Counted from the first letter of the stretch, positions 16,171 to 43,644 are shown. The stretch: DNA of 45,788 nt from Candidatus Doudnabacteria bacterium (GCA_016186915.1 JACPKU010000007.1:1-45788), one strand, 5' to 3'. Numbers and translations are program-made. The notes: a model not told the origin generated them from the letters alone.

Positions 16171-16200
16171 AAAAATTACCCTTATATCTCTTTTCTTAGC

Positions 16201-16335
16201 GAGGAATTCCTGCGAAATTAGCCTTCGGAACCCTGCCCGCGGCAGGGTGAGAACGCAGGGAACGTCTGACGTTCCAGGCTGCGTTTCGTAGCAACGAAAC
16301 GACAGCCGTTAATTTCGCAGGAATTCCGAGCGCTC
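16201..16335. repeat. Long inverted-repeat element (AAATTAGCC family, copy C)
   Basis: Perfect 18-bp arms (GGAATTCCTGCGAAATTA at 16203-16220 and its complement at 16310-16327) enclose several inner hairpins (CCCTGCC..GGCAGGG, GGAACGTC..GACGTTCC, CGTTTCGT..ACGAAACG). The AAATTAGCC...AGCCGTTAATTT junction is shared with the elements at 37602-37737 and 41318-41422. It lies 3' of the small-ORF operon that ends at 16470. Confidence 0.7.
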
Positions 16336-20791: not shown

Positions 20792-20923
20792 GAGCGAGGG
20801 TTGTCTGCGAAAAAAGAATCTCGGAGCTGAAACCGCTTAGTTCCTGCGGTTACAGGGAGAGCTTAGCGGCAAATTTTGCGTCCAGTAAAATTTGACCTCG
20901 TCTTTTTTCACAGACACCCGAGC
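20792..20923. repeat. Long inverted-repeat element H
   Basis: Arms GAGCGAGGGTTGTCTGCG/AAAAAAGA and their near-complement at 20901-20923 pair over about 22 bp. The interior holds ACCGC..GCGGT and AAATTTTGCG-type pairing. Confidence 0.65.
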
Positions 20924-22262: not shown

Positions 22263-22276
22263 AGATTATTGAAACG

Positions 22277-22333
22277 AGGAATAGTTGCAAAATTAGCCTG
22301 CGCAGGACAACGGTGATTATGCAACCTATTCCT
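22277..22333. repeat. Short inverted-repeat element (AAATTAGCC family, copy D)
   Basis: Arms AGGAATAGTTGCA and TGCAACCTATTCCT enclose AAATTAGCCTGCGCAGGAC and AACGGTG. The inner sequence matches copies at 37602-37737 and 41318-41422 but lacks their central hairpin. It lies between the convergent DUF5715 and groEL genes. Confidence 0.65.
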
Positions 22334-22336
22334 AAG

Positions 22337-24105
<1,769 letters not shown>

Positions 24106-35030: not shown

Positions 35031-35546
35031 CTACCTCTCCCTTGTTCCCTCTCCTTTAAAGGAGAGGGAAGATCTATATTGTTGTACCAATTCGTATGCT
35101 CCAAAAAATATACTGACGTAAAACAAATCTCCCAAAACTGTATTTTTGAAAAACGGCAGAGCGTTGATATAAGATGAAAGAATCCCGGTTAGATCGTGTG
35201 GATACATCGTGGGTGAATAGAAGAAAGCAAAATTAGTAATCAGATAAAATAAAACTGATCCGAATAAGGCGCCGCCAAAAATTGTGCCAATATTTTTGTG
35301 TTTCTTAATGGCAAGCCCAATCAGCCCGATCAGAAGGAAAGAGCCGTAAACCATTATCCGGCTTTGGAGTGAATCAAAGCCAATGAAAAAATCTGAAATA
35401 AACATAGCAAGAAGCGGCAGAATTAAGGCTTGTTTTTTATTTAGATAAGTGCCGCCGAAAAGGGCAATGGCTGCGATAGGCGCAAAATTTGCTGGGTGCG
35501 GAATCACCCGCAACAGCGCGCCGATTAGAATAATTATGTAAGTCAT
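35031..35546 (-). CDS. Multi-span membrane protein, DUF6580/ECF S-component-like
   Basis: A 171-aa protein with about five membrane helices. The start IIILIGALLRVIPHPANFAPIAAIALFGGTYL matches DUF6580 membrane proteins, whose size and layout resemble substrate-binding S-components of ECF transporters. The last dozen residues (SLSFKGEGTRER) translate a palindromic repeat at 35047-35068, so the native C-terminus was replaced. It follows the DUF4430 gene by 6 bp. Together with cobO and nrdJ, I infer corrinoid uptake; the substrate is not proven, and no ECF ATPase or T-component gene lies in the window. Confidence 0.7.
   Translation of the reverse strand: MTYIIILIGALLRVIPHPANFAPIAAIALFGGTYLNKKQALILPLLAMFISDFFIGFDSLQSRIMVYGSFLLIGLIGLAIKKHKNIGTIFGGALFGSVLFYLITNFAFFYSPTMYPHDLTGILSSYINALPFFKNTVLGDLFYVSIFFGAYELVQQYRSSLSFKGEGTRER
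35047..35068. repeat. CCCTCTCC/GGAGAGGG palindrome, translated in the DUF6580-like gene
   Basis: A perfect 22-bp palindrome, centre TTTAAA. It lies 5' of the DUF559 gene and supplies the C-terminal residues of the upstream membrane protein. Confidence 0.9.
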
Positions 35547-35552
35547 CGAATT

Positions 35553-35963
35553 TTAGTAATCTCCAATTTTTTCCAACTTCCACTCAATTCTCTCTCCGTT
35601 TTTTGTTTGGTATTGACCGGCCCCGACTTGTGCTTTCTGGCCGTTGGCATAAAACGCCCAAAAATGTGTGTTGGCTGGCTCAATCCCGTCAATCGAAAGG
35701 ACAAACTCTCCAAGCCCGCCAAAATCTTGCGTTTCAACGCTGTGAGCTTCTTTCAGCAACTCTAACGCCGTATGGCCTTCTACGCCTTGATAGGAAATTG
35801 TGCTTGCTGGAGCTTGTTGAACAGCCGGGGCTTCCTGAATTTCTGTTCGGTCAATCGTAAGATCCGCTTGCGGCCGGGACGGTGCGCGAGTGAGAGCAAA
35901 AGCCACGCCAATTACCGCAATGATCACAATGATTACAAACAGTTCTATTCTTTTGGCATTCAT
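35553..35963 (-). CDS. Membrane-anchored DUF4430 protein, putative corrinoid binding
   Basis: A 136-aa protein: one membrane helix (IELFVIIVIIAVIGVAFAL), a Pro/Ala-rich linker, then a DUF4430 domain from about residue 57 (VEGHTALELLKEAHSVETQD, IEPANTHFWAFYANGQKAQVGAGQYQTK, GERIEWKLE). DUF4430 is the fold of the beta domain of intrinsic factor and transcobalamin, which covers bound B12. It lies 6 bp from the membrane protein gene and close to cobO, and the divergent riboswitch-controlled gene has the same domain. It could pass cobalamin to the transporter. Confidence 0.85.
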   Translation of the reverse strand: MNAKRIELFVIIVIIAVIGVAFALTRAPSRPQADLTIDRTEIQEAPAVQQAPASTISYQGVEGHTALELLKEAHSVETQDFGGLGEFVLSIDGIEPANTHFWAFYANGQKAQVGAGQYQTKNGERIEWKLEKIGDY

Positions 35964-35973
35964 AAGTTATTCA

Positions 35974-36573
35974 TTAAGTGCGCCCAAACATACTAGCATA
36001 TTTCTTTTCTTCCTCAAAAGTCATGGGTATATCATCCTGAATCTTGTGCTGCTTACAATATTCGAGGAACAATGTCGAATAACCCTTATTAATCCCTTTG
36101 GTTAAAGACAGTCCTAATTTTGGCAAAAAAACATCCAGGGTGTTTTCCGCCGCCTCTATTTCCAGAAAATCTCCCAAAAAAGGCAGTTTATGAAATTCCA
36201 ATACTAGTCCTTCCAATTCGAATTTCGTCACAAACTTCTCCTTGATACGAAAATGATAAAACCCGATCTTTCTCAAAATCTCATCCATAACTTCGAAATT
36301 CTCTATTTTTGTCTGAATTTCAAATCTTTGCAGCAAATTCTGATGCTCCTCGCCCTTTTCCTTGTACGTAAAAACATTCCCATATGGGGCCTTTCGTAAT
36401 CTTAAATGCTTGCCGGTTGGATTGTCAAAATCAAAGTCTCCGGCTTGATTGTTGTACATAATATCCGACTCCAGTCCTTCTTGCTCGGAAATTTTTATTC
36501 CGCCCAAGGCCGCCACTTTTTTCATCAGAGCTTCCGGGTTGTCTAATTTTATTTTAACCTCAATCTCTTGCAT
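35974..36573 (-). CDS. CYTH-domain (class IV adenylate cyclase-like / triphosphatase) protein
   Basis: A 199-aa triphosphate tunnel metalloenzyme-like protein. The ExExK signature is at residues 3-7 (MQEIEVKIKL), with further charged strand motifs KHLRLRKAPYGNVFTYK, ENFEVMDEIL and GLVLEFHKLPFLGDFLEIEA. Members cleave triphosphate groups (thiamine triphosphate, inorganic triphosphate) or make cAMP. It lies 6 bp after cobO. CobO-type enzymes release inorganic triphosphate, so an attractive but untested idea is that this protein removes that product. Confidence 0.85.
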   Translation of the reverse strand: MQEIEVKIKLDNPEALMKKVAALGGIKISEQEGLESDIMYNNQAGDFDFDNPTGKHLRLRKAPYGNVFTYKEKGEEHQNLLQRFEIQTKIENFEVMDEILRKIGFYHFRIKEKFVTKFELEGLVLEFHKLPFLGDFLEIEAAENTLDVFLPKLGLSLTKGINKGYSTLFLEYCKQHKIQDDIPMTFEEEKKYASMFGRT

Positions 36574-36579
36574 AATTGT

Positions 36580-37110
36580 TCAAAAATCTATTCCCCGCTG
36601 CGCTAGTATACCTTTGTAATACGGGTGTTTTATCATTCGCATCTCGGTCACTAAGTCCGCAGCCTCGATTAATTTCTTGATGCGCTTATGGCCAGTCAAA
36701 CACAGGTGCACGGATTTGGGTTTGGATTTAATAATTTTTAACACATCGTCTGTACTTAAAAGTTTGGATTCTATCGCAGAGATTGCTTCGTCCAAAACAA
36801 CCAAGTCGTATTTTTTGCTTTTCAAAGCCTTGATACTTTCTTTCATGGCATTCTTTGCGGCCTTTATATGCTCTTCAATCGGTTTGCGATCTCCCAAGAT
36901 GCCCACGAATCCGCGGCCCATTAGTTTAACTTCAACATTTGGCAAGCTCGCTAAAATTTTCCGCTCCCCTGACGGCCAATCACCTTTGACAAATTGCAAA
37001 AATAAAACCTTAAACCCTGTGCCAGCAGCACGTATGGCTAATCCTGCTGCGGCACTAGTTTTTCCCTTTCCATCTCCTATATAAATTAGGGTTAAGCCTT
37101 TTTGATTCAT
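36580..37110 (-). CDS. cobO: Corrinoid adenosyltransferase (CobO/BtuR type)
   Basis: A 176-aa protein with the family P-loop GDGKGKTSAAAGLAIRAAG at about residues 12-30, FLQFVKGDWPSGE, YDLVVLDEAISAI and VHLCLTGHKR. It transfers the adenosyl group of ATP to reduced cobalamin, making adenosylcobalamin and releasing triphosphate. The operon contains no de novo B12 synthesis genes, so it probably acts on salvaged corrinoid and feeds NrdJ. Confidence 0.93.
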   Translation of the reverse strand: MNQKGLTLIYIGDGKGKTSAAAGLAIRAAGTGFKVLFLQFVKGDWPSGERKILASLPNVEVKLMGRGFVGILGDRKPIEEHIKAAKNAMKESIKALKSKKYDLVVLDEAISAIESKLLSTDDVLKIIKSKPKSVHLCLTGHKRIKKLIEAADLVTEMRMIKHPYYKGILAQRGIDF

Positions 37111-37111
37111 G

Positions 37112-37525
37112 CTATCTAATTAAATTTAAGTCAGCATTTAAAATGGTGGGTTTAATGGCTTGCAGCTCAGTTTTGTAGATTGGATTGTCGGGAATTGGGT
37201 TAAGTAAATATATTTTTTGTTTCAAATAATAGGCAAGCGTGATATCCATAAATGAATTGCCGCCAATATAATTCTTAACGCCGTTTTTGTCGTAATTTAG
37301 GATCAACAACGCATCGCTGTTTTTCATACTATTCCAAAACGATTCGATCGCATTCTCGGAAAACTTTTGTTTCAATTTAATTTGTTCTTTCTCTTTCTGC
37401 GTTTTGCCGACCAGTTTCTCGGTATTCAAAGACAAGAATACCTGGTGGCCCATCTGTTCAAGCTTGCGCTTAACCTCCACCATCTGTTCTGCAAATTGCA
37501 TACTCCCACCCACGGCGATTTTCAT
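37112..37525 (-). CDS. Nucleoside 2-deoxyribosyltransferase-like protein
   Basis: From the ATG at 37525 (GAAAGAGAA upstream) the protein has 137 residues. It starts MKIAVGGSMQFAEQMVEVKRKLEQMGHQVFL and has DALLILNYDKNGVKNYIGGNSFMDITLAYYLKQKIYLLNPI, the Rossmann-like pattern with the NYIGGN loop of this superfamily. The in-frame extension to 37600 crosses a hairpin and is not used. It may act on deoxynucleosides, which would fit dNTP metabolism beside nrdJ, but many relatives are uncharacterised. It is 1 bp from cobO. Confidence 0.7.
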   Translation of the reverse strand: MKIAVGGSMQFAEQMVEVKRKLEQMGHQVFLSLNTEKLVGKTQKEKEQIKLKQKFSENAIESFWNSMKNSDALLILNYDKNGVKNYIGGNSFMDITLAYYLKQKIYLLNPIPDNPIYKTELQAIKPTILNADLNLIR

Positions 37526-37559
37526 AAATTCTCTTTCGCTCCAAGCATAATTTTTAAGG

Positions 37560-37580
37560 CGGCGGTAACCCGCCGCCTTT
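37560..37580. repeat. GGCGGCGG/CCGCCGCC hairpin
   Basis: An 8-bp GC hairpin between nrdJ and the deoxyribosyltransferase-like gene. It has a pyrimidine-rich tail on the plus strand and could attenuate operon transcription. Confidence 0.55.
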
Positions 37581-37601
37581 CCTTTCTTTTCTTTATTCAC
37601 T

Positions 37602-37737
37602 TTCGAAATGCGGAACGCGAGGCGACGGGCTGCAAATTAACCCGCGCAGCACGACGGTGCAAGCGAGTAGGCTGCTCCGCCAGCAGGCGGAGACAGCCGG
37701 TAATTTACAGTCTGTCGCCGAGCATTAACATTTCGAA
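37602..37737. other. Structured inverted-repeat element (AAATTAGCC family, copy B)
   Basis: Nested pairing: TTCGAAATG/CATTTCGAA, GGCGAC/GTCGCC, AAATTA/TAATTT, GGCT/AGCC and CTCCGCC-AGCA-GGCGGAG. The core matches copy A (41318-41422) with paired substitutions. Its right arm includes the nrdJ stop codon. Confidence 0.75.
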
Positions 37738-40331
37738 TACCCACACATTTCGCATTTCGTACACCCTTCTGCCATCACCAGCATATTCCCGCACTCTGGA
37801 CAAGCCGGGGCATGGCCCAAATCCGCCACTGACACTTTCTGCGCCACCATGGTCGTGCCATTGGTCTTGATCTCCGTGGTCACTGACTCATACACCAATT
37901 CTTCTTGCGGCTGGACTAATTTCGGCTCGATCTTGGGCAAATCAAGTTTCAGAGTGGTTTGTCCGCGCTTGGTGTGATTTTCCAAAACATTGGCAATCGC
38001 ATCCGGCAGAGACAAAATCCGCTCGCCGTTGTGAAATACCGGATCCGGCCCTCGGATGCCTTTGAGCTGGTCAATCACGTCAGAGATAGAGATTCCAGAA
38101 CGCAAAGACAGAGAAATCATCCGACAGATCGCCTCGGTTTGCGCGCCAAAGAACCCACCAGCCTTACCCAGCTGGGAAAAAACTTCAAACGGTCCGGTTT
38201 CGTCTTCGTTGATGGTCACGTAAAGATTGCCGTATGCTGTGGATATTTTATAGGTTGAACCCTGCATCACATCCGGCCGTTCTCTGGGTGAGATGTGTCC
38301 TATGTTCACAAGCCCTGGATTGGACTTAAGCTCTGGCGCCATTTCTATCTTTTGGTTCTTGGCCTCCACCTGTTCGGCTGCGTCCTTGCCCAATTTTTTA
38401 TGATCCACGGCCAAAATCTGCTCGTCTCTGGAACCGTCCCGATAAATCGTCCCGCCTTTGCAGCCTAGGTCATACATGGTTTCGTACAATTTTTTGGTTT
38501 GCTCAACAGTGTAATTTTCCGGCGCATTCACGGTCTTGCTAATTGCACTGTCAGTCCAGCGCTGCACCGCGGCCTGCACGGCCACGTGTTCTTCCGGACT
38601 TAACTCCATGGCAGTCGCATAATAATCCGGCAGCTCCTCGCCCGGATGCTCATCCAGCCAATTTTTGGCCAACTTAATATGCTCCTGATGCACACCAAGC
38701 CGGGATTTGCGAAAATAAGTCCAAGAAAAAAACGGCTCAATCCCAGTAGAAGTGCCGACCATCGTCCCTACCGTGCCTGTGGGCGCTTGGGTCATGATAG
38801 TGACATTGCGGATGCCGTACTGGCCGACCAAATGGCGGATATAGTCTGGCATCTGCTTCATATAGCCGCTTTGTAAAAATTTTTCTTTGTCGAATCTCGG
38901 AAACGAGCCTTTCTCGCGCGCCAAATCCACTGAAGTTTCGTAGGCCACCACTGCGATGTACTGGTACAGTTTGTCGATAAACTTCACGGCTTCCGGTGAG
39001 CCATACCGCAGCCCCAGATGAATCAGCATCTCTGCCAAACCGATCGTACCCATACCCACCCGGCGCTCGCTCATCTGCTGAAGCTTGTTCTCCTCAAAAA
39101 AGTAAGGGGTGGCGTCAATCACGTTGTCCTGGAAACGCACCGCAGAAGACACCGTGGTTTTAAGTTTGTTCCAATCCACGTCCTTTTTCTCCATGTCCAC
39201 GTGCTTGGCCAAATTAACATGTCCCAAATTGCACACGCCCCAAGCCGGCAGTGGCTGTTCACCGCAGGGATTGGTGCAGGAAAGAGGGGCAAAGTACCAA
39301 GAGTTGGAATAATGATTCGCTCGATCTATAAAATACATTCCCGGTTCAGCCGAAGCCCAGGCAGAAGAAATGATGTTGTCCCAGATATCCCGCGCCTTCA
39401 CGGTTTTATGCTTGACCACCTTGCCGCCCACTTGCTTCCAGCGCTTGATGTCTCCGTTCCAATACTCTTTATACAAAGGATCAGAAGGGTCAGGAAAAAT
39501 CAGATCCCAGGCTTCGTCATTTTTTACAGCTTGCATAAAGTCATCGGTAATTCCGACCGAAATGTTCGCGTTGGTAATTTTGCCCGCTTCTTTTTTGGAA
39601 TTAATAAAATCCAAAACATCGGGATGCCAGACATTGAGAATGAGCATCAGCGCTCCTCGCCGCGAGCCCCCTTGTTCAATCAGGCCAGTGACAAAGCTAT
39701 ACAAAGACGCCCAGGATACGGCGCCTGAAGACCGGCCGTTTACGCCTTTCACATAGGAATACCGAGGGCGCAGGGAAGAAACATTGATGCCCACCCCGCC
39801 GCCGCGCGACATAATTTCGGCCATTTGCGTCAAAGTTTCAAAAATCCCACCCCGGCTGTCGTCAGGAGACGGGATCACATAGCAATTATAAAAAGTTAAA
39901 TTCTGACCGGTGCCGGCGCCGGTAAAAATTCTGCCGGCAGGCACGTATTTCCAATCATCCATCAGTTCCCGGAACCTGCCTTCCCATTCTGCCTGCAATT
40001 CCTCGGTTTCCTCCACGCTGGCCACGTGGCGCGCCACCCGATCAAACATTTGTTCTGGTGCAGTTTCCAAAGGCTTGTCCACATGCTCGACTGCCCGCGT
40101 CTCTGTGGAGCCATCGCGCATCTTCACGGTCACCTGCCGGTTTGTTTCATCAATGCTTTCCACTGTGCCAATCTCTCGGTGTCCGGTTTTGAGATTGACG
40201 CAGACCACGGCCAAATCGCCGATCTTCAAGGTTTCTTTCTTTGCATCTTTTACCGCGTATCGATCCAGAAAAATTTTTTCACCCAGTTCGCTTAAGGCAT
40301 TTTTGGTTCTTGCCTGCAAGTTCTCGTGCAT
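37725..40331 (-). CDS. nrdJ: Adenosylcobalamin-dependent (class II) ribonucleotide reductase
   Basis: An 868-aa enzyme. After an N-terminal part with a small beta domain at about residues 36-90 (IGDLAVVCVNLKTGHREIG), the barrel follows: VPAGRIFTGAG, FYNCYVIPSP, SRGGGVGINVSSLRP, then SCTNPCGEQPLPAWGVCNLG at about 351-370 with the active-site Cys in NPCGE, and MTQAPTGTVGTMVGTSTGIEPFF. The C-terminus has a Cys-rich zinc-ribbon-like tail (CPECGN...CTKCEMCGYSKC) that also carries the redox cysteines. It makes deoxynucleotides using adenosylcobalamin and no oxygen. No other RNR is seen in the window. It follows nrdR by 130 bp. Confidence 0.95.
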   Translation of the reverse strand: MHENLQARTKNALSELGEKIFLDRYAVKDAKKETLKIGDLAVVCVNLKTGHREIGTVESIDETNRQVTVKMRDGSTETRAVEHVDKPLETAPEQMFDRVARHVASVEETEELQAEWEGRFRELMDDWKYVPAGRIFTGAGTGQNLTFYNCYVIPSPDDSRGGIFETLTQMAEIMSRGGGVGINVSSLRPRYSYVKGVNGRSSGAVSWASLYSFVTGLIEQGGSRRGALMLILNVWHPDVLDFINSKKEAGKITNANISVGITDDFMQAVKNDEAWDLIFPDPSDPLYKEYWNGDIKRWKQVGGKVVKHKTVKARDIWDNIISSAWASAEPGMYFIDRANHYSNSWYFAPLSCTNPCGEQPLPAWGVCNLGHVNLAKHVDMEKKDVDWNKLKTTVSSAVRFQDNVIDATPYFFEENKLQQMSERRVGMGTIGLAEMLIHLGLRYGSPEAVKFIDKLYQYIAVVAYETSVDLAREKGSFPRFDKEKFLQSGYMKQMPDYIRHLVGQYGIRNVTIMTQAPTGTVGTMVGTSTGIEPFFSWTYFRKSRLGVHQEHIKLAKNWLDEHPGEELPDYYATAMELSPEEHVAVQAAVQRWTDSAISKTVNAPENYTVEQTKKLYETMYDLGCKGGTIYRDGSRDEQILAVDHKKLGKDAAEQVEAKNQKIEMAPELKSNPGLVNIGHISPRERPDVMQGSTYKISTAYGNLYVTINEDETGPFEVFSQLGKAGGFFGAQTEAICRMISLSLRSGISISDVIDQLKGIRGPDPVFHNGERILSLPDAIANVLENHTKRGQTTLKLDLPKIEPKLVQPQEELVYESVTTEIKTNGTTMVAQKVSVADLGHAPACPECGNMLVMAEGCTKCEMCGYSKC

Positions 40332-40367
40332 GTTTGTTTCCTTTAGTTAATTCTTTAATTATAATAG

Positions 40368-40463
40368 CGATCCGAATGATCCAAATCATCATCCGAATTA
40401 TCCGAATCTTAAACTCAAATTATTCGTGTCATTCGGATGTCATTCGTAGATTGGGATCGCATT
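40368..40463. repeat. GCGATCC/GGATCGC palindromic repeat, copy 2
   Basis: Outer GCGATCC and GGATCGC enclose several ATCCGAAT/ATTCGGAT units. Homologous to 24008-24105. It fills the gap between nrdR and nrdJ. Confidence 0.7.
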
Positions 40464-40920
40464 AAAGTTTTTTCGCTTCGCGGACGAATTCGTCTACGTC
40501 CTGGAATTGCCTGTACACGGAGGCAAAACGAATGTAAGCCACCTGGTCTTTCTTTTTAATCTGTTTCATCACAATACTGCCGATGTCTTTGCTGCCAATC
40601 TCGCTTTTCCCGCTTTTTTGAATGTCCTGTTCAATCGCGGATACAATCTGGATAAAATCATCTCGGGTCAGCGGCCGTTTTTCAAATGCCTTGCGGATAC
40701 CCGACTCGATCTTTTCCCGCATATACGGCTGCTTGGTGCCGTCGCGCTTAACCACGGTCAGATCCAGAATTTCCATCTCCTCATGGGTGGAGAACCGAAA
40801 ACCGCATTTAATGCATTCGCGCCTGCGGCGAATCGCCATACCTTCGTTAAGCGGCCGGGAATCTAGGACTTTGGTATCTTCATGAGAACACTTGGGGCAC
40901 TTCATAAATTTTGGGCTCAA
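40462..40920 (-). CDS. nrdR: Transcriptional repressor NrdR
   Basis: A 152-aa protein with the N-terminal zinc ribbon MKCPKCSHEDTKVLDSRPLNEG...RRRRECIKCGFRFSTHE and the ATP-cone domain from about residue 53 (VVKRDGTKQPYMREKIESGIRKAFEKRPL). It senses dATP/ATP and represses ribonucleotide reductase genes through paired NrdR boxes. Such boxes lie at its own promoter (41034-41049, 41067-41082), so it should control itself and nrdJ downstream. Confidence 0.96.
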   Translation of the reverse strand: MSPKFMKCPKCSHEDTKVLDSRPLNEGMAIRRRRECIKCGFRFSTHEEMEILDLTVVKRDGTKQPYMREKIESGIRKAFEKRPLTRDDFIQIVSAIEQDIQKSGKSEIGSKDIGSIVMKQIKKKDQVAYIRFASVYRQFQDVDEFVREAKKL

Positions 40921-41033
40921 AAAAAATAAAAGAGATTACTCCTGGATTAAGCCTCTCGGTTAAGCTTGTCAAAATGAACGAACTATGTTTGATTTCGATT
41001 TTGTGCCTGCAAACCTTAAGATTTCAAGGTTCA

Positions 41034-41082
41034 ACACAATATATAGTATTAACCTTATTTAATATAGCCCTATATATAGAAC
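41034..41082 (-). promoter_or_regulatory. Pair of NrdR boxes
   Basis: Box 1 is ACACAATATATAGTAT (41034-41049). Box 2 has the core CTATATATAG (41070-41079). Both fit the consensus aCaCwAtATaTwGtgt well in the core. Their centres are 33 bp apart, about three helical turns, as NrdR requires. Confidence 0.85.
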
Positions 41083-41089
41083 CTGTCAA
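41061..41089 (-). promoter_or_regulatory. Promoter of nrdR-nrdJ
   Basis: TTGACA (41089-41084), a 17-bp spacer and TATATT (41066-41061) on the minus strand; start near 41054. NrdR box 2 lies inside the spacer and box 1 just downstream of the start. Confidence 0.85.
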
Positions 41090-41317
41090 AAATCGGTTTT
41101 TCCGCAATTTTTTCAAATTTTCCCATAATCTGGAAAAACTTATCAACAAAATCGCCCCTCCCAAAGTTTTCAATGTCAAGGCCAAAGCCAAAGACAAAAA
41201 TGGGATGATAACGTTGTAGAAAAGCATGATTATAATAATTCTGGGTCTCGCCCCGTACCTCCCTTGCCGGCAGGCAGGATGGTGCGGGGTCAAGGCCTCT
41301 CAATCCCTTCTTTTTAG

Positions 41318-41422
41318 CGAGAGATGGATATAAAACTAGCCTGCGCAGCACGGCGGTGCGAGCAAGCAGGCCGCCCCGCCAGCAGGCGGGGACGGCCGAT
41401 AGTTTTATAGCCCATCTCGAGC
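41318..41422. other. Structured inverted-repeat element (AAATTAGCC family, copy A)
   Basis: Nested pairing: GCGAGAGATGG with CCATCTCGAGC, ATAAAACTA/TAGTTTTAT, GGCC/GGCC and CCCCGCC-AGCA-GGCGGGG, plus GCAC/GTGC on the 5' side. It has the same orientation as copy B. A and B bracket nrdR-nrdJ. Confidence 0.75.
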
Positions 41423-41443
41423 GGCATATGCCCGAGCGCTTTC

Positions 41444-41472
41444 TTGACAAACTTTTTTTTGAGGTTTAAGAT
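41444..41472 (+). promoter_or_regulatory. Promoter of the riboswitch-controlled operon
   Basis: TTGACA (41444-41449), a 17-bp spacer and TAAGAT (41467-41472). The predicted start is near 41479, giving a leader of about 365 nt. Confidence 0.8.
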
Positions 41473-41504
41473 CAATTTACCTTAATAAATTAATATCCAG
41501 ATAA

Positions 41505-41745
41505 CTCCCCGCAAGGGGTCGGTTAGGGAAACCGGTGCGTTCGTCTCTAAAAAAGACACTAGTCCGGTGCTGTGCCGCAACTGTAATTGTATCTTTCAGT
41601 TTAGTTCTCCCCTTTTAGGGGAGATGTCACGAAGTGACAGAGAGGTCTATAACCCTCTCTCGGCGCTTCGCGCCACTCTCTCCCTCAAGGGAGAGAGTTA
41701 AGCTGAAGATTACATAAGCCAGAGTACTAACCAGTTATTTTGCCA
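41505..41745 (+). promoter_or_regulatory. Cobalamin riboswitch
   Basis: It contains the conserved blocks of the B12 aptamer in order: TAGGGAA (41524-41530), CCGGTG (41532-41537), GTCCGGTGCTG, GCCGCAACTGT (41574-41584, the B12 box) and AGCCAGAGTAC (41717-41727), closed by GGTTAG/CTAACC. The side stem between the B12 box and AGCCAGA (ATCTTTCAG/CTGAAGAT) is enlarged by about 100 nt of tandem hairpins (41601-41702). A terminator hairpin follows at 41799-41832. B12 binding should switch the downstream genes off. Confidence 0.9.
41601..41702. repeat. Palindrome array inserted in the riboswitch side stem
   Basis: Five consecutive hairpins: CTCCCC/GGGGAG, TGTCAC/GTGACA, AGAGAG/CTCTCT, GGCGC/GCGCC and CTCTCTCCC/GGGAGAGAG. 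The last is identical to the repeat beside the DUF559 gene (34639-34662). Confidence 0.85.
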
Positions 41746-41798
41746 GTTACTCTCTCTTCGAGCAAAGAGAAGGGATTTTGTTTTCTCCAAAAAACAAT

Positions 41799-41832
41799 CT
41801 TACCCGTCTCTTAACCAAGACGGGTAATTTTT
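41799..41832 (+). terminator. Riboswitch-controlled intrinsic terminator
   Basis: CTTACCCGTCT...AGACGGGTAATTTTT ends directly before the coding region. It is the probable expression platform of the cobalamin riboswitch. Confidence 0.85.
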
Positions 41833-41844
41833 ATGGAGAAAAAT

Positions 41845-43644
41845 ATGAGAAAACGAACTGCTTGGGTTTTAATCGGGTTACTAATTTATTTTCCGCTCAA
41901 CGCCTTAGCAACATTTAACTCTTCCGGAGCACAGAGTTACCTTTTGGCGCACGGCAGCAACCCCTGGTCTACGATCGCATTGGTTTCGCTGAACGCTTCC
42001 TCGATACCCACCAATCATCTGACCAATGTTTCCGGTAATTCAGCAATCGAGTACGCCGCCCCGATCCTGGCTATAACCGCGCTGAACAAAGATCCAAGAA
42101 GCTTTGGCAGTACTGACTTGGTTTCGAAGTTAAAATCTTTTCACGACAACGGCCAAATTGGCGATCCCGTAACCCTCAACGACGATTTATTCGGCATCTT
42201 GGCTCTGGTTTCCGCAGGAGAAAGCAAGGCTAGCCCAATCCTTACAGATGCCAAAAACTTTTTGACCTCAAACCAAAACCCAGACGGCGGCTGGGGATTT
42301 ACCACAAGTAGTCCGTCGGATACTAATATGACCGCGGCGGGTATCTTGGCCTTAAAATCTTTAGACATTAACACTGCTGATAATCACATCCAATCGGCCT
42401 TGAACTATTTACAAGCCGCGCAGAACGATGACGGCGGCTTTCCTTATGACCCCCAAAGCTCATTTGGCACAGCTTCTGATTCTTCCTCAACTGCTTGGGT
42501 AATCTGGGCGCTGAACAGCCTTAACATCAATCCCGCGACCTGGAACAAAACCGGCGGGAACCCAACTAGTTATCTGGAAAGCACGCAAACTAACAGTGGC
42601 TTTTTTGAGTATCAATCCGGCTCAGGCGAAGACGCTTTTTCTGCCATCACCACGGCTTACGCTGCAATCGCGCTGCAAGGGAAAACTCTACCGCTAAACA
42701 TTATCAAGTCGGCAAGCAGTCTGCCAGTGATTCCTTTCCGCATTGAAGGATCCCAGTCCACGGTTTGTGAAGGGTCCATCCCTGGCCCGACTGCTTTGGA
42801 TGTAGTGAAAAATGCCGCTGAAATTTGCAACTTCACTTACAATGTCCAGGAACTTAGCTTCGGTCCTTATCTAAAACAAATCAACAATGACACGGCGCAA
42901 GGCTTGATTGGCTGGATCTATCTGGTCAATAACACTCCTCCCAGCGTGGGAGCGGCTGACTTTGTGCTTGGAGCCTCTGACGAACTGCTCTGGTTCTATG
43001 GTAACTTTGACGATAAACCTACCCGATTAAACTTATCCAATCCCCAAATCAGTACAAACCAATCAGCCACAGTAACAGTGGAGTCATTTGCCAACAATAC
43101 CTGGACGCCTCTCAACGCCGCTGAAGTATTTTATGCAACCAGTACTGCCACCACTGGCGCAAATGGACAGGCAACCATCAGCCCAGATGACGGCTTCTAC
43201 AAAATCTACGCAGAGAAACAAGGATTTATCCGCAGCAACCGCAAGCTTCTGAAAGTTGGCGAACCTGCGCAAGGATCAGTCAACCTTTCTGCCAATGTTT
43301 TACCGGGTGACGTGCTTGGCGAAGATAACGAACAATCTTCAGTGAGCTTCACCATGGATCTGAACAGTGTTGATTTTGGCACGCTTAATCCCGGCACAGA
43401 AAAATCCCAAACCATCAAGCTTACCAACACTGGCTCAACTGCCCTGACAATAGAGAGTATTGTGGAAGGTGATAGTCTGTTTGTTGATCATCTGCTCATT
43501 GATCAAAGCTTGTGGAAAGTGTTCAGCACAAAGCTGGCCGTGGATCAAGCAAAAAGCCAGCAGCTCAAACTTAAGATTCCTGCCAGCTATTCAGGCAGCG
43601 GCAGCAAAACCGGCACCCTGACTTTCTGGGCACAAGCCAACTAA
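41845..43644 (+). CDS. Secreted transcobalamin/intrinsic-factor-like B12-binding protein
   Basis: A 599-aa protein. I use the ATG at 41845, because GGAG lies at the right distance and the ATG at 41833 is in the terminator T run. The signal peptide is RTAWVLIGLLIYFPLNALA. Residues about 20-285 are alpha/alpha-barrel repeats of the squalene-cyclase/prenyltransferase type (NQNPDGGWGF, AQNDDGGFPYD). Residues about 300-390 are a DUF4430 domain (GPTALDVVKNAAEICNF, LIGWIYLVNNTPPSVGAADFVL). Two beta-sandwich modules follow; the last (VDFGTLNPGTEKSQTIKLTNTGS) is ASH/HYDIN-like. The first two domains are the order found in animal intrinsic factor and transcobalamin. Riboswitch control supports B12 capture. 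It has no membrane anchor of its own. Confidence 0.82.
   Translation: MRKRTAWVLIGLLIYFPLNALATFNSSGAQSYLLAHGSNPWSTIALVSLNASSIPTNHLTNVSGNSAIEYAAPILAITALNKDPRSFGSTDLVSKLKSFHDNGQIGDPVTLNDDLFGILALVSAGESKASPILTDAKNFLTSNQNPDGGWGFTTSSPSDTNMTAAGILALKSLDINTADNHIQSALNYLQAAQNDDGGFPYDPQSSFGTASDSSSTAWVIWALNSLNINPATWNKTGGNPTSYLESTQTNSGFFEYQSGSGEDAFSAITTAYAAIALQGKTLPLNIIKSASSLPVIPFRIEGSQSTVCEGSIPGPTALDVVKNAAEICNFTYNVQELSFGPYLKQINNDTAQGLIGWIYLVNNTPPSVGAADFVLGASDELLWFYGNFDDKPTRLNLSNPQISTNQSATVTVESFANNTWTPLNAAEVFYATSTATTGANGQATISPDDGFYKIYAEKQGFIRSNRKLLKVGEPAQGSVNLSANVLPGDVLGEDNEQSSVSFTMDLNSVDFGTLNPGTEKSQTIKLTNTGSTALTIESIVEGDSLFVDHLLIDQSLWKVFSTKLAVDQAKSQQLKLKIPASYSGSGSKTGTLTFWAQAN

Follow-up and report, generated by a model that had tools for sequence, protein, structure and literature searches.

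A strand-polarised palindromic repeat of Candidatus Doudnabacteria and other Patescibacteria, probably a non-autonomous mobile element

In this study, a 45,788-nucleotide stretch of a Candidatus Doudnabacteria genome (GCA_016186915.1 JACPKU010000007.1:1-45788; hereafter the window) was analyzed, in which two copies, A and B, of a structured element of approximately 95–135 nt flank the genes nrdR and nrdJ. Both had been located, in the same orientation, in a preliminary description made from the sequence alone, and covariance-model matches at 41317-41422 (+) and 37617-37723 (+) agreed with it. The following features were identified at the locus.

37603..37611, + strand: outer left arm of copy B, TTCGAAATG, repeating the 3′ coding end of nrdJ in inverted form
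37617..37723, + strand: copy B, full element (model R1, 107.6 bits; copy B is in the seed alignment)
37725..40331, − strand: nrdJ, B12-dependent (class II) ribonucleotide reductase (Pfam PF02867, PF12637, PF00317)
37729..37737, + strand: outer right arm of copy B, CATTTCGAA, within the last nrdJ codons
40462..40905, − strand: nrdR repressor (Pfam PF22811, PF03477)
41317..41422, + strand: copy A, full element GCGAG...CGAGC with P1, P2 and P3 (fold; model R1, 117.7 bits; copy A is in the seed alignment)
41339..41367, + strand: hairpin P2 of copy A, with GCA/GA internal loop and GGCG loop (fold; conserved among copies)
41369..41397, + strand: hairpin P3 of copy A, closed by an AGCA loop and with one A bulging from the 3′ arm (fold; conserved among copies)

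Copies A and B share one architecture: the ends GCGAG and CGAGC, and a long variable stem (P1) around the two hairpins. In P2, a GCA/GA internal loop is followed by a short stem capped with GGCG or GACG; P3 ends in an AGCA loop and contains a single bulged A. Across copies, P2 is usually closed by GACG and P3 usually carries the AGCA loop, the tandem GA/AG mismatch beside the closing GC pairs is nearly invariant, and the GCGAG/CGAGC ends occur in more than 90% of Doudnabacteria copies. The predicted folding of A and B was far below that of dinucleotide shuffles (z = −6.2 and −8.9, 0/200).

The paired substitutions listed in the preliminary description (AAACTA/TAGTTT versus AAATTA/TAATTT, GGCC versus GGCT/AGCC, CCCC versus CTCC) are present, and its claim of covarying stems held in wider samples, with covariation far above shuffled and slid controls. 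Among eight copies of the source genome, two-sided changes were found in 25 of 41 pairs (14.3 in shuffles), with a covariation score of 0.53 versus 0.20 after shuffling and at most 0.12 with the partners slid. For 104 copies of the family, 97.5% of cells were paired and the score was 0.643 (0.167 shuffled; 0.03–0.08 slid, with a maximum of 0.076); this alignment (A3) was aligned to the model and leans toward it, and a structure-free MAFFT alignment (A1) gave the same result. Stem sequences vary freely between copies, yet remain paired. No Rfam 15 covariance model matched the element at E up to 1, and a known RNA family was rejected. A hairpin of the form CATCCCGCC...GGCGGGATG acts as P3 in copies and genera that are unrelated (loci L143, L145 and L135), as if another palindromic repeat had been captured.

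A structure-aware search for further copies, suggested in the same description, returned about 20 in the source genome (728 kb, 7 contigs), the exact number resting on covariance-model searches. Five are in the window, including three in addition to A and B.

16199..16331, + strand: copy with an extra hairpin between P2 and P3 (model R1, 56.2 bits)
20794..20923, + strand: divergent copy (model R2, 48.3 bits, E = 4.2e-9)
22274..22337, + strand: truncated, internally deleted copy retaining P1, at the groEL stop codon (model R1, E = 0.0015)

At another locus (L142, G000:C4 16200-16501), two copies of the same orientation lie 71 nt apart downstream of an rplL-like gene; the outer one carries an extra GAACGTC hairpin, which is also found in the window copy at 16199.

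Titles of the matching public contigs named Candidatus Doudnabacteria only. All 14 family genomes were positive, with 1–19 copies each, and models R1 and R2 found no copies in 35 other genomes of the same order. Confinement of the element to this family, accepted with R1 and R2, was withdrawn after a third model, R3, built from distant matches, found relatives in 42 of 380 Patescibacteria genomes, spread over 35 of 313 genera and frequently with multiple copies in a genome. The family-only result therefore reflects model sensitivity. The relatives outside Doudnabacteria have the same core, and when aligned to the model, their 41 pairs also covary.

The position of the copies relative to genes was strongly oriented. 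According to our own uncurated longest-ORF (open reading frame) calls, no more than 12 nt separated the right end from the 3′ end of a gene on the opposite strand in 42 of 104 Doudnabacteria copies, compared with 5 copies for the left end (p = 2e-8); since copies share ancestry, placement and strand counts are non-independent and all p-values on them are optimistic. The spacing from right end to stop codon was typically 1–6 nt. In another 15 Doudnabacteria copies, the right end was at most 12 nt away from a tRNA gene (nine at 3′ ends, six at 5′ ends). The bias recurred in the other families, where the right end was near an ORF 3′ end 21 times and the left end 6 times (p = 0.006). The abutting core genes include fusA, groEL, dnaB, rplL and nrdJ, named by reading translations, with nrdJ alone checked against Pfam. 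The preliminary description had named random scatter with no tendency to flank genes as the pattern that would count against it; copies instead strongly favor gene ends.

Three results indicate that the folded strand is the one antisense to the abutting gene. Internal mismatches of the P1 arms were G-U in 39 cases and A-C in 11 (p = 9e-5), the same bias persisted with arms defined on the opposite strand, and folding was more stable for the + strand in 85 of 104 copies. A 3′-untranslated-region function within the abutting gene's own mRNA is weakened by this bias. A −10-like TANNNT motif was found 5–7 nt upstream of the element in 24 cases versus 8.5 expected (z = 6). No T run followed the hairpin in either direction, and the element is not followed by a terminator.

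No Doudnabacteria copy was clearly within a gene; in other families, many copies lie within genes. In families f76 and f29, copies occupy open frames of recG, dnaE, mnmA, prmC, uvrD-like (two), tsaD (three), fmt, def, ksgA-like and mutY-like genes. These names come from PDB and Pfam for recG, tsaD, fmt, mnmA and def and from our own reading for the others, and the search was restricted to frames that the element leaves open, so copies that break the frame would escape it. Compared with solved homologs, RecG and TsaD are longer by 33 residues where they carry an in-frame copy. In three genera (L272, L258 and L285), the element occupies one and the same surface segment of tsaD, once in reverse orientation.

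The outermost arms had been described as adapted to their insertion sites, and this held in part. Outside the GCGAG/CGAGC ends, complementarity of at least 9 nt within 60-nt flanks was found in 11 Doudnabacteria cases versus 0.9 expected. In copy B, a distance of 1 nt separates the right end from the stop codon of nrdJ, the left flank arm is TTCGAAATGCGG, and TTCGAAATG pairs with CATTTCGAA; the wider limits (37602-37737) first assigned to this copy take in this further outer arm. In all three nrdJ-3′ copies, from three genera (the source genome, G001 and G009), the left flank carries an inverted copy of the genome's own nrdJ 3′ coding end. Each matches the nrdJ end of its own genus; the right arm is therefore coding sequence and the left arm its inverted copy. 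Inside the ends the picture differed: matches of at least 9 nt between Doudnabacteria P1 arms and nearby host DNA occurred in 3.9% versus 4.2% of shuffled pairings, and of at least 10 nt in 2.9% versus 0.2%, the latter being three copies, two of them A/T-rich. As the excess over shuffled pairings is little or none, we rejected nearby host DNA as the source of these P1 arms, and site-derived arms fail to explain them.

In other families, arms matched nearby host DNA over at least 9 nt in 17 of 84 copies (4.6 expected). The strongest matches came from copies that follow a tRNA gene or a tRNA-like 3′ end at a distance of 11–89 nt and whose right arm repeats 11–18 nt of that upstream 3′ end. At loci L215, L299, L301 and L294, right arm and flank together repeat the tRNA 3′ end, recalling attR fragments of tRNA-targeting islands. 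When the in-frame copies of def and the ksgA-like gene were compared with element-free relatives, one arm was homologous to native sequence, in short alignments; in recG, tsaD and fmt either arm may be the native one, and mnmA and uvrD were read from single comparisons. Based on the nrdJ 3′ inverted copies in three genera, the tRNA 3′ direct copies and the homologous arms in def and the ksgA-like gene, we tentatively suggest that a phylum-wide structured mobile element might build its outer stem from host sequence at the insertion site. Fold-back or template-switch synthesis would then rebuild the hairpin at every new site, and placement would be guided to gene and tRNA ends. We regard this reading as less likely than not.

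Copies within one genome were up to 97% identical with unrelated flanks, and some copies were situated inside remnants of another copy; both findings imply movement. Copies at the same site in different genera were hardly more alike than random pairs (0.68 versus 0.66), and copies with a shared P1 differed in P3 by an entire hairpin module. These observations fit amplification and turnover at favored places better than inheritance of one functional copy per site. We consider, with a probability of about 0.6, that the copies belong to a Patescibacteria family of mobile palindromic elements that are non-autonomous, fold in a strand-polarised manner and are placed in an oriented way. The observations behind this view are the fold and its covariation, the number of copies, the family range, and the biases in strand and in orientation at gene ends; to these we add near-identical copies in unrelated surroundings, copies residing in frame within genes, and flanks more complementary than expected by chance.

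Several results weigh against mobility. The fusA 3′ end, both sides of dnaB, the nrdJ 3′ end and tRNA-Pro are occupied repeatedly in several genera, and this recurrence is equally compatible with an ancestral functional site. Comparison by eye of near-identical recent Doudnabacteria copies revealed no target-site duplication; direct repeats do occur at some tRNA-adjacent copies of other families. No transposase or recombinase was linked to the element: the Y1 transposase (PF01797) is present in 7 of 14 family genomes and reverse transcriptase in 5 of 14, both being absent from the source genome, and TnpB (PF07282) was found in 0 of 14 while control genomes gave matches. The P1 result given above points the same way, as far as site-derived arms are concerned. 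These distributions led us to reject a REP/RAYT element (repetitive extragenic palindrome with REP-associated tyrosine transposase, of the Y1 type), retrotransposition and a TnpB omega RNA. A phage vehicle was also unsupported: a single scan of viral contigs for the exact pattern gave no match, and searching for the core alone returned one contig, which lacked the fold. No element split around a gene, as in a parent transposon, was found among the fetched loci, whole genomes not having been scanned.

We infer the mechanism of mobility, the molecule recognized, the status of transcription and the absence of a cellular function. The conserved P2/P3 core would be carried on stems that change freely in sequence while being kept paired, and selection appears to act on the best-folding strand, antisense to the abutting gene. 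This strand may act as single-stranded DNA recognized in trans by a mobilising enzyme or, alternatively, as a short RNA started at the −10-like box just upstream. New copies would then arise elsewhere in the genome; in Doudnabacteria, they would be placed or retained a few bases past stop codons or tRNA ends in one orientation, and in other families also in frame within genes. At some sites, the outermost arms repeat adjacent host sequence in inverted or direct form and probably arose through fold-back or template-switch synthesis at insertion.

The strongest competitor is a cis-acting boundary element, in which the antisense-transcribed fold would stop or buffer transcription into the 3′ end of the neighbor, or its complement would protect the upstream mRNA 3′ end, selection keeping copies at stop codons. 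The tight, oriented spacing of 1–6 nt to the stop codons of fusA, groEL, dnaB, rplL and nrdJ would suit such a role, as would the occupation of the same sites across genera and the upstream −10-like box. However, copies at shared sites in different genera scarcely exceed random pairs in similarity while copies of one genome reach 0.97, the T run is missing in both directions, and many copies of other families are intragenic. We regard this explanation as rather unlikely. A dispersed small RNA, each copy being an independent trans-acting non-coding RNA gene that multiplied, could account for the strand-polarised fold, the conservation of motifs left unpaired (the GA tandem at the ends and the GCA/GA loop) and the positioned −10-like motif; the lack of an Rfam relative and of a terminator, and the in-frame copies in coding genes, make it distinctly improbable.

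Integron attC sites are variable, structure-conserved palindromes located after reading frames, whose antisense strand is folded, and their end boxes are RYYYAAC and GTTRRRY. The element resembles them in all these respects except the boxes, its size of 95–135 nt and its position after stop codons being compatible with integron-like recombination sites. Its ends are instead GCGAG and CGAGC, its fold is branched with two inner hairpins, and its neighbors are core chromosomal genes and tRNAs rather than cassettes, so an attC analogue is very improbable.

Least credible is that copies A and B are the ends of a composite unit moving nrdR-nrdJ between genomes: they have the same orientation and enclose just these genes in the source genome, but about 20 copies are present genome-wide, pairs this close are expected by chance, and relatives, which lack the bracket, already contradict it. 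The earlier claim of exact enclosure stands insofar as little besides nrdR and nrdJ lies between the copies; copy A is approximately 0.4 kb upstream of nrdR, in an intergenic region common to a divergent gene. The suggested transferable block did not survive comparison with relatives. Ten of 14 family genomes have nrdJ; a copy directly follows its stop codon in three (the source genome, G001 and G009), and a copy just upstream of nrdR/nrdJ was found in none of the nrdJ-bearing genomes besides the source genome. A mobile block or composite transposon was rejected, as the same block with both ends was seen in no relative. A second pair brackets dnaB. With about 20 copies in 728 kb, approximately 1.9 neighboring pairs at most 3.8 kb apart are expected by chance. 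Because of this expectation, and because the upstream copy is limited to the source genome, the bracketing is incidental, though the site after nrdJ is one of the preferred positions.

The window also contains a B12 use-and-uptake neighborhood (35031-43644) that includes nrdJ.

35031-35546: DUF6580 membrane protein
35553-35963: DUF4430 protein
36580-37110: CobA/CobO adenosyltransferase
41833-43644: DUF4430 protein with alpha-alpha toroid domains, which we take to resemble transcobalamin

A cobalamin-riboswitch-like leader at approximately 41480-41690 (+) precedes the gene at 41833, its RF00174 match of 21 bits being under the gathering score of 31.5.

Small palindromic repeats were previously known from a few bacterial groups, and in the literature searched we found none described for the candidate phyla radiation. 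The element combines a fold conserved across distant families, strict orientation to stop codons and in-frame residence in conserved genes of very small genomes. Inserts of approximately 33 residues in Patescibacteria proteins may be element-derived. If stems do copy the host site, this would offer a testable route for hairpin origin and relocation and would explain why paired arms differ completely between copies.

Among known systems, Rickettsia palindromic elements (RPEs) are dispersed both in intergenic regions and within conserved protein genes, where they are inserted in frame (PMC2229807, PMC10969869). Like these and their Wolbachia counterparts, compared here by description and not by sequence, the element is a palindrome of approximately 100–150 bp with a stable long stem-loop, and its f76 and f29 copies are in frame in conserved genes. 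Unlike RPEs, it has a branched core conserved phylum-wide and partly host-copied outer arms, and in Doudnabacteria its copies stay outside genes and adjoin stop codons in a single orientation. ERIC/IRU, RUP and Correia/NEMIS are small non-coding dispersed repeats whose transcripts would fold as long stem-loops (PMC2229807). The element shares small size, dispersal and a long stem-loop with these and other bacterial miniature inverted-repeat transposable elements (MITEs); it differs in that neither TA termini nor target duplication was seen, its stems differ yet pair, and no parent transposon was found among the fetched loci. REPs, of 20–40 bp (PMC3733652), and the bacterial interspersed mosaic elements built on them with a RAYT (Y1) are likewise extragenic palindromes close to gene ends; at 95–135 nt, in a genome without Y1 transposase, the element departs from them. 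Since no known family fits all tested features, the element is a variant of palindromic mobile elements that we do not file as a member of the RPEs, REPs or MITEs.

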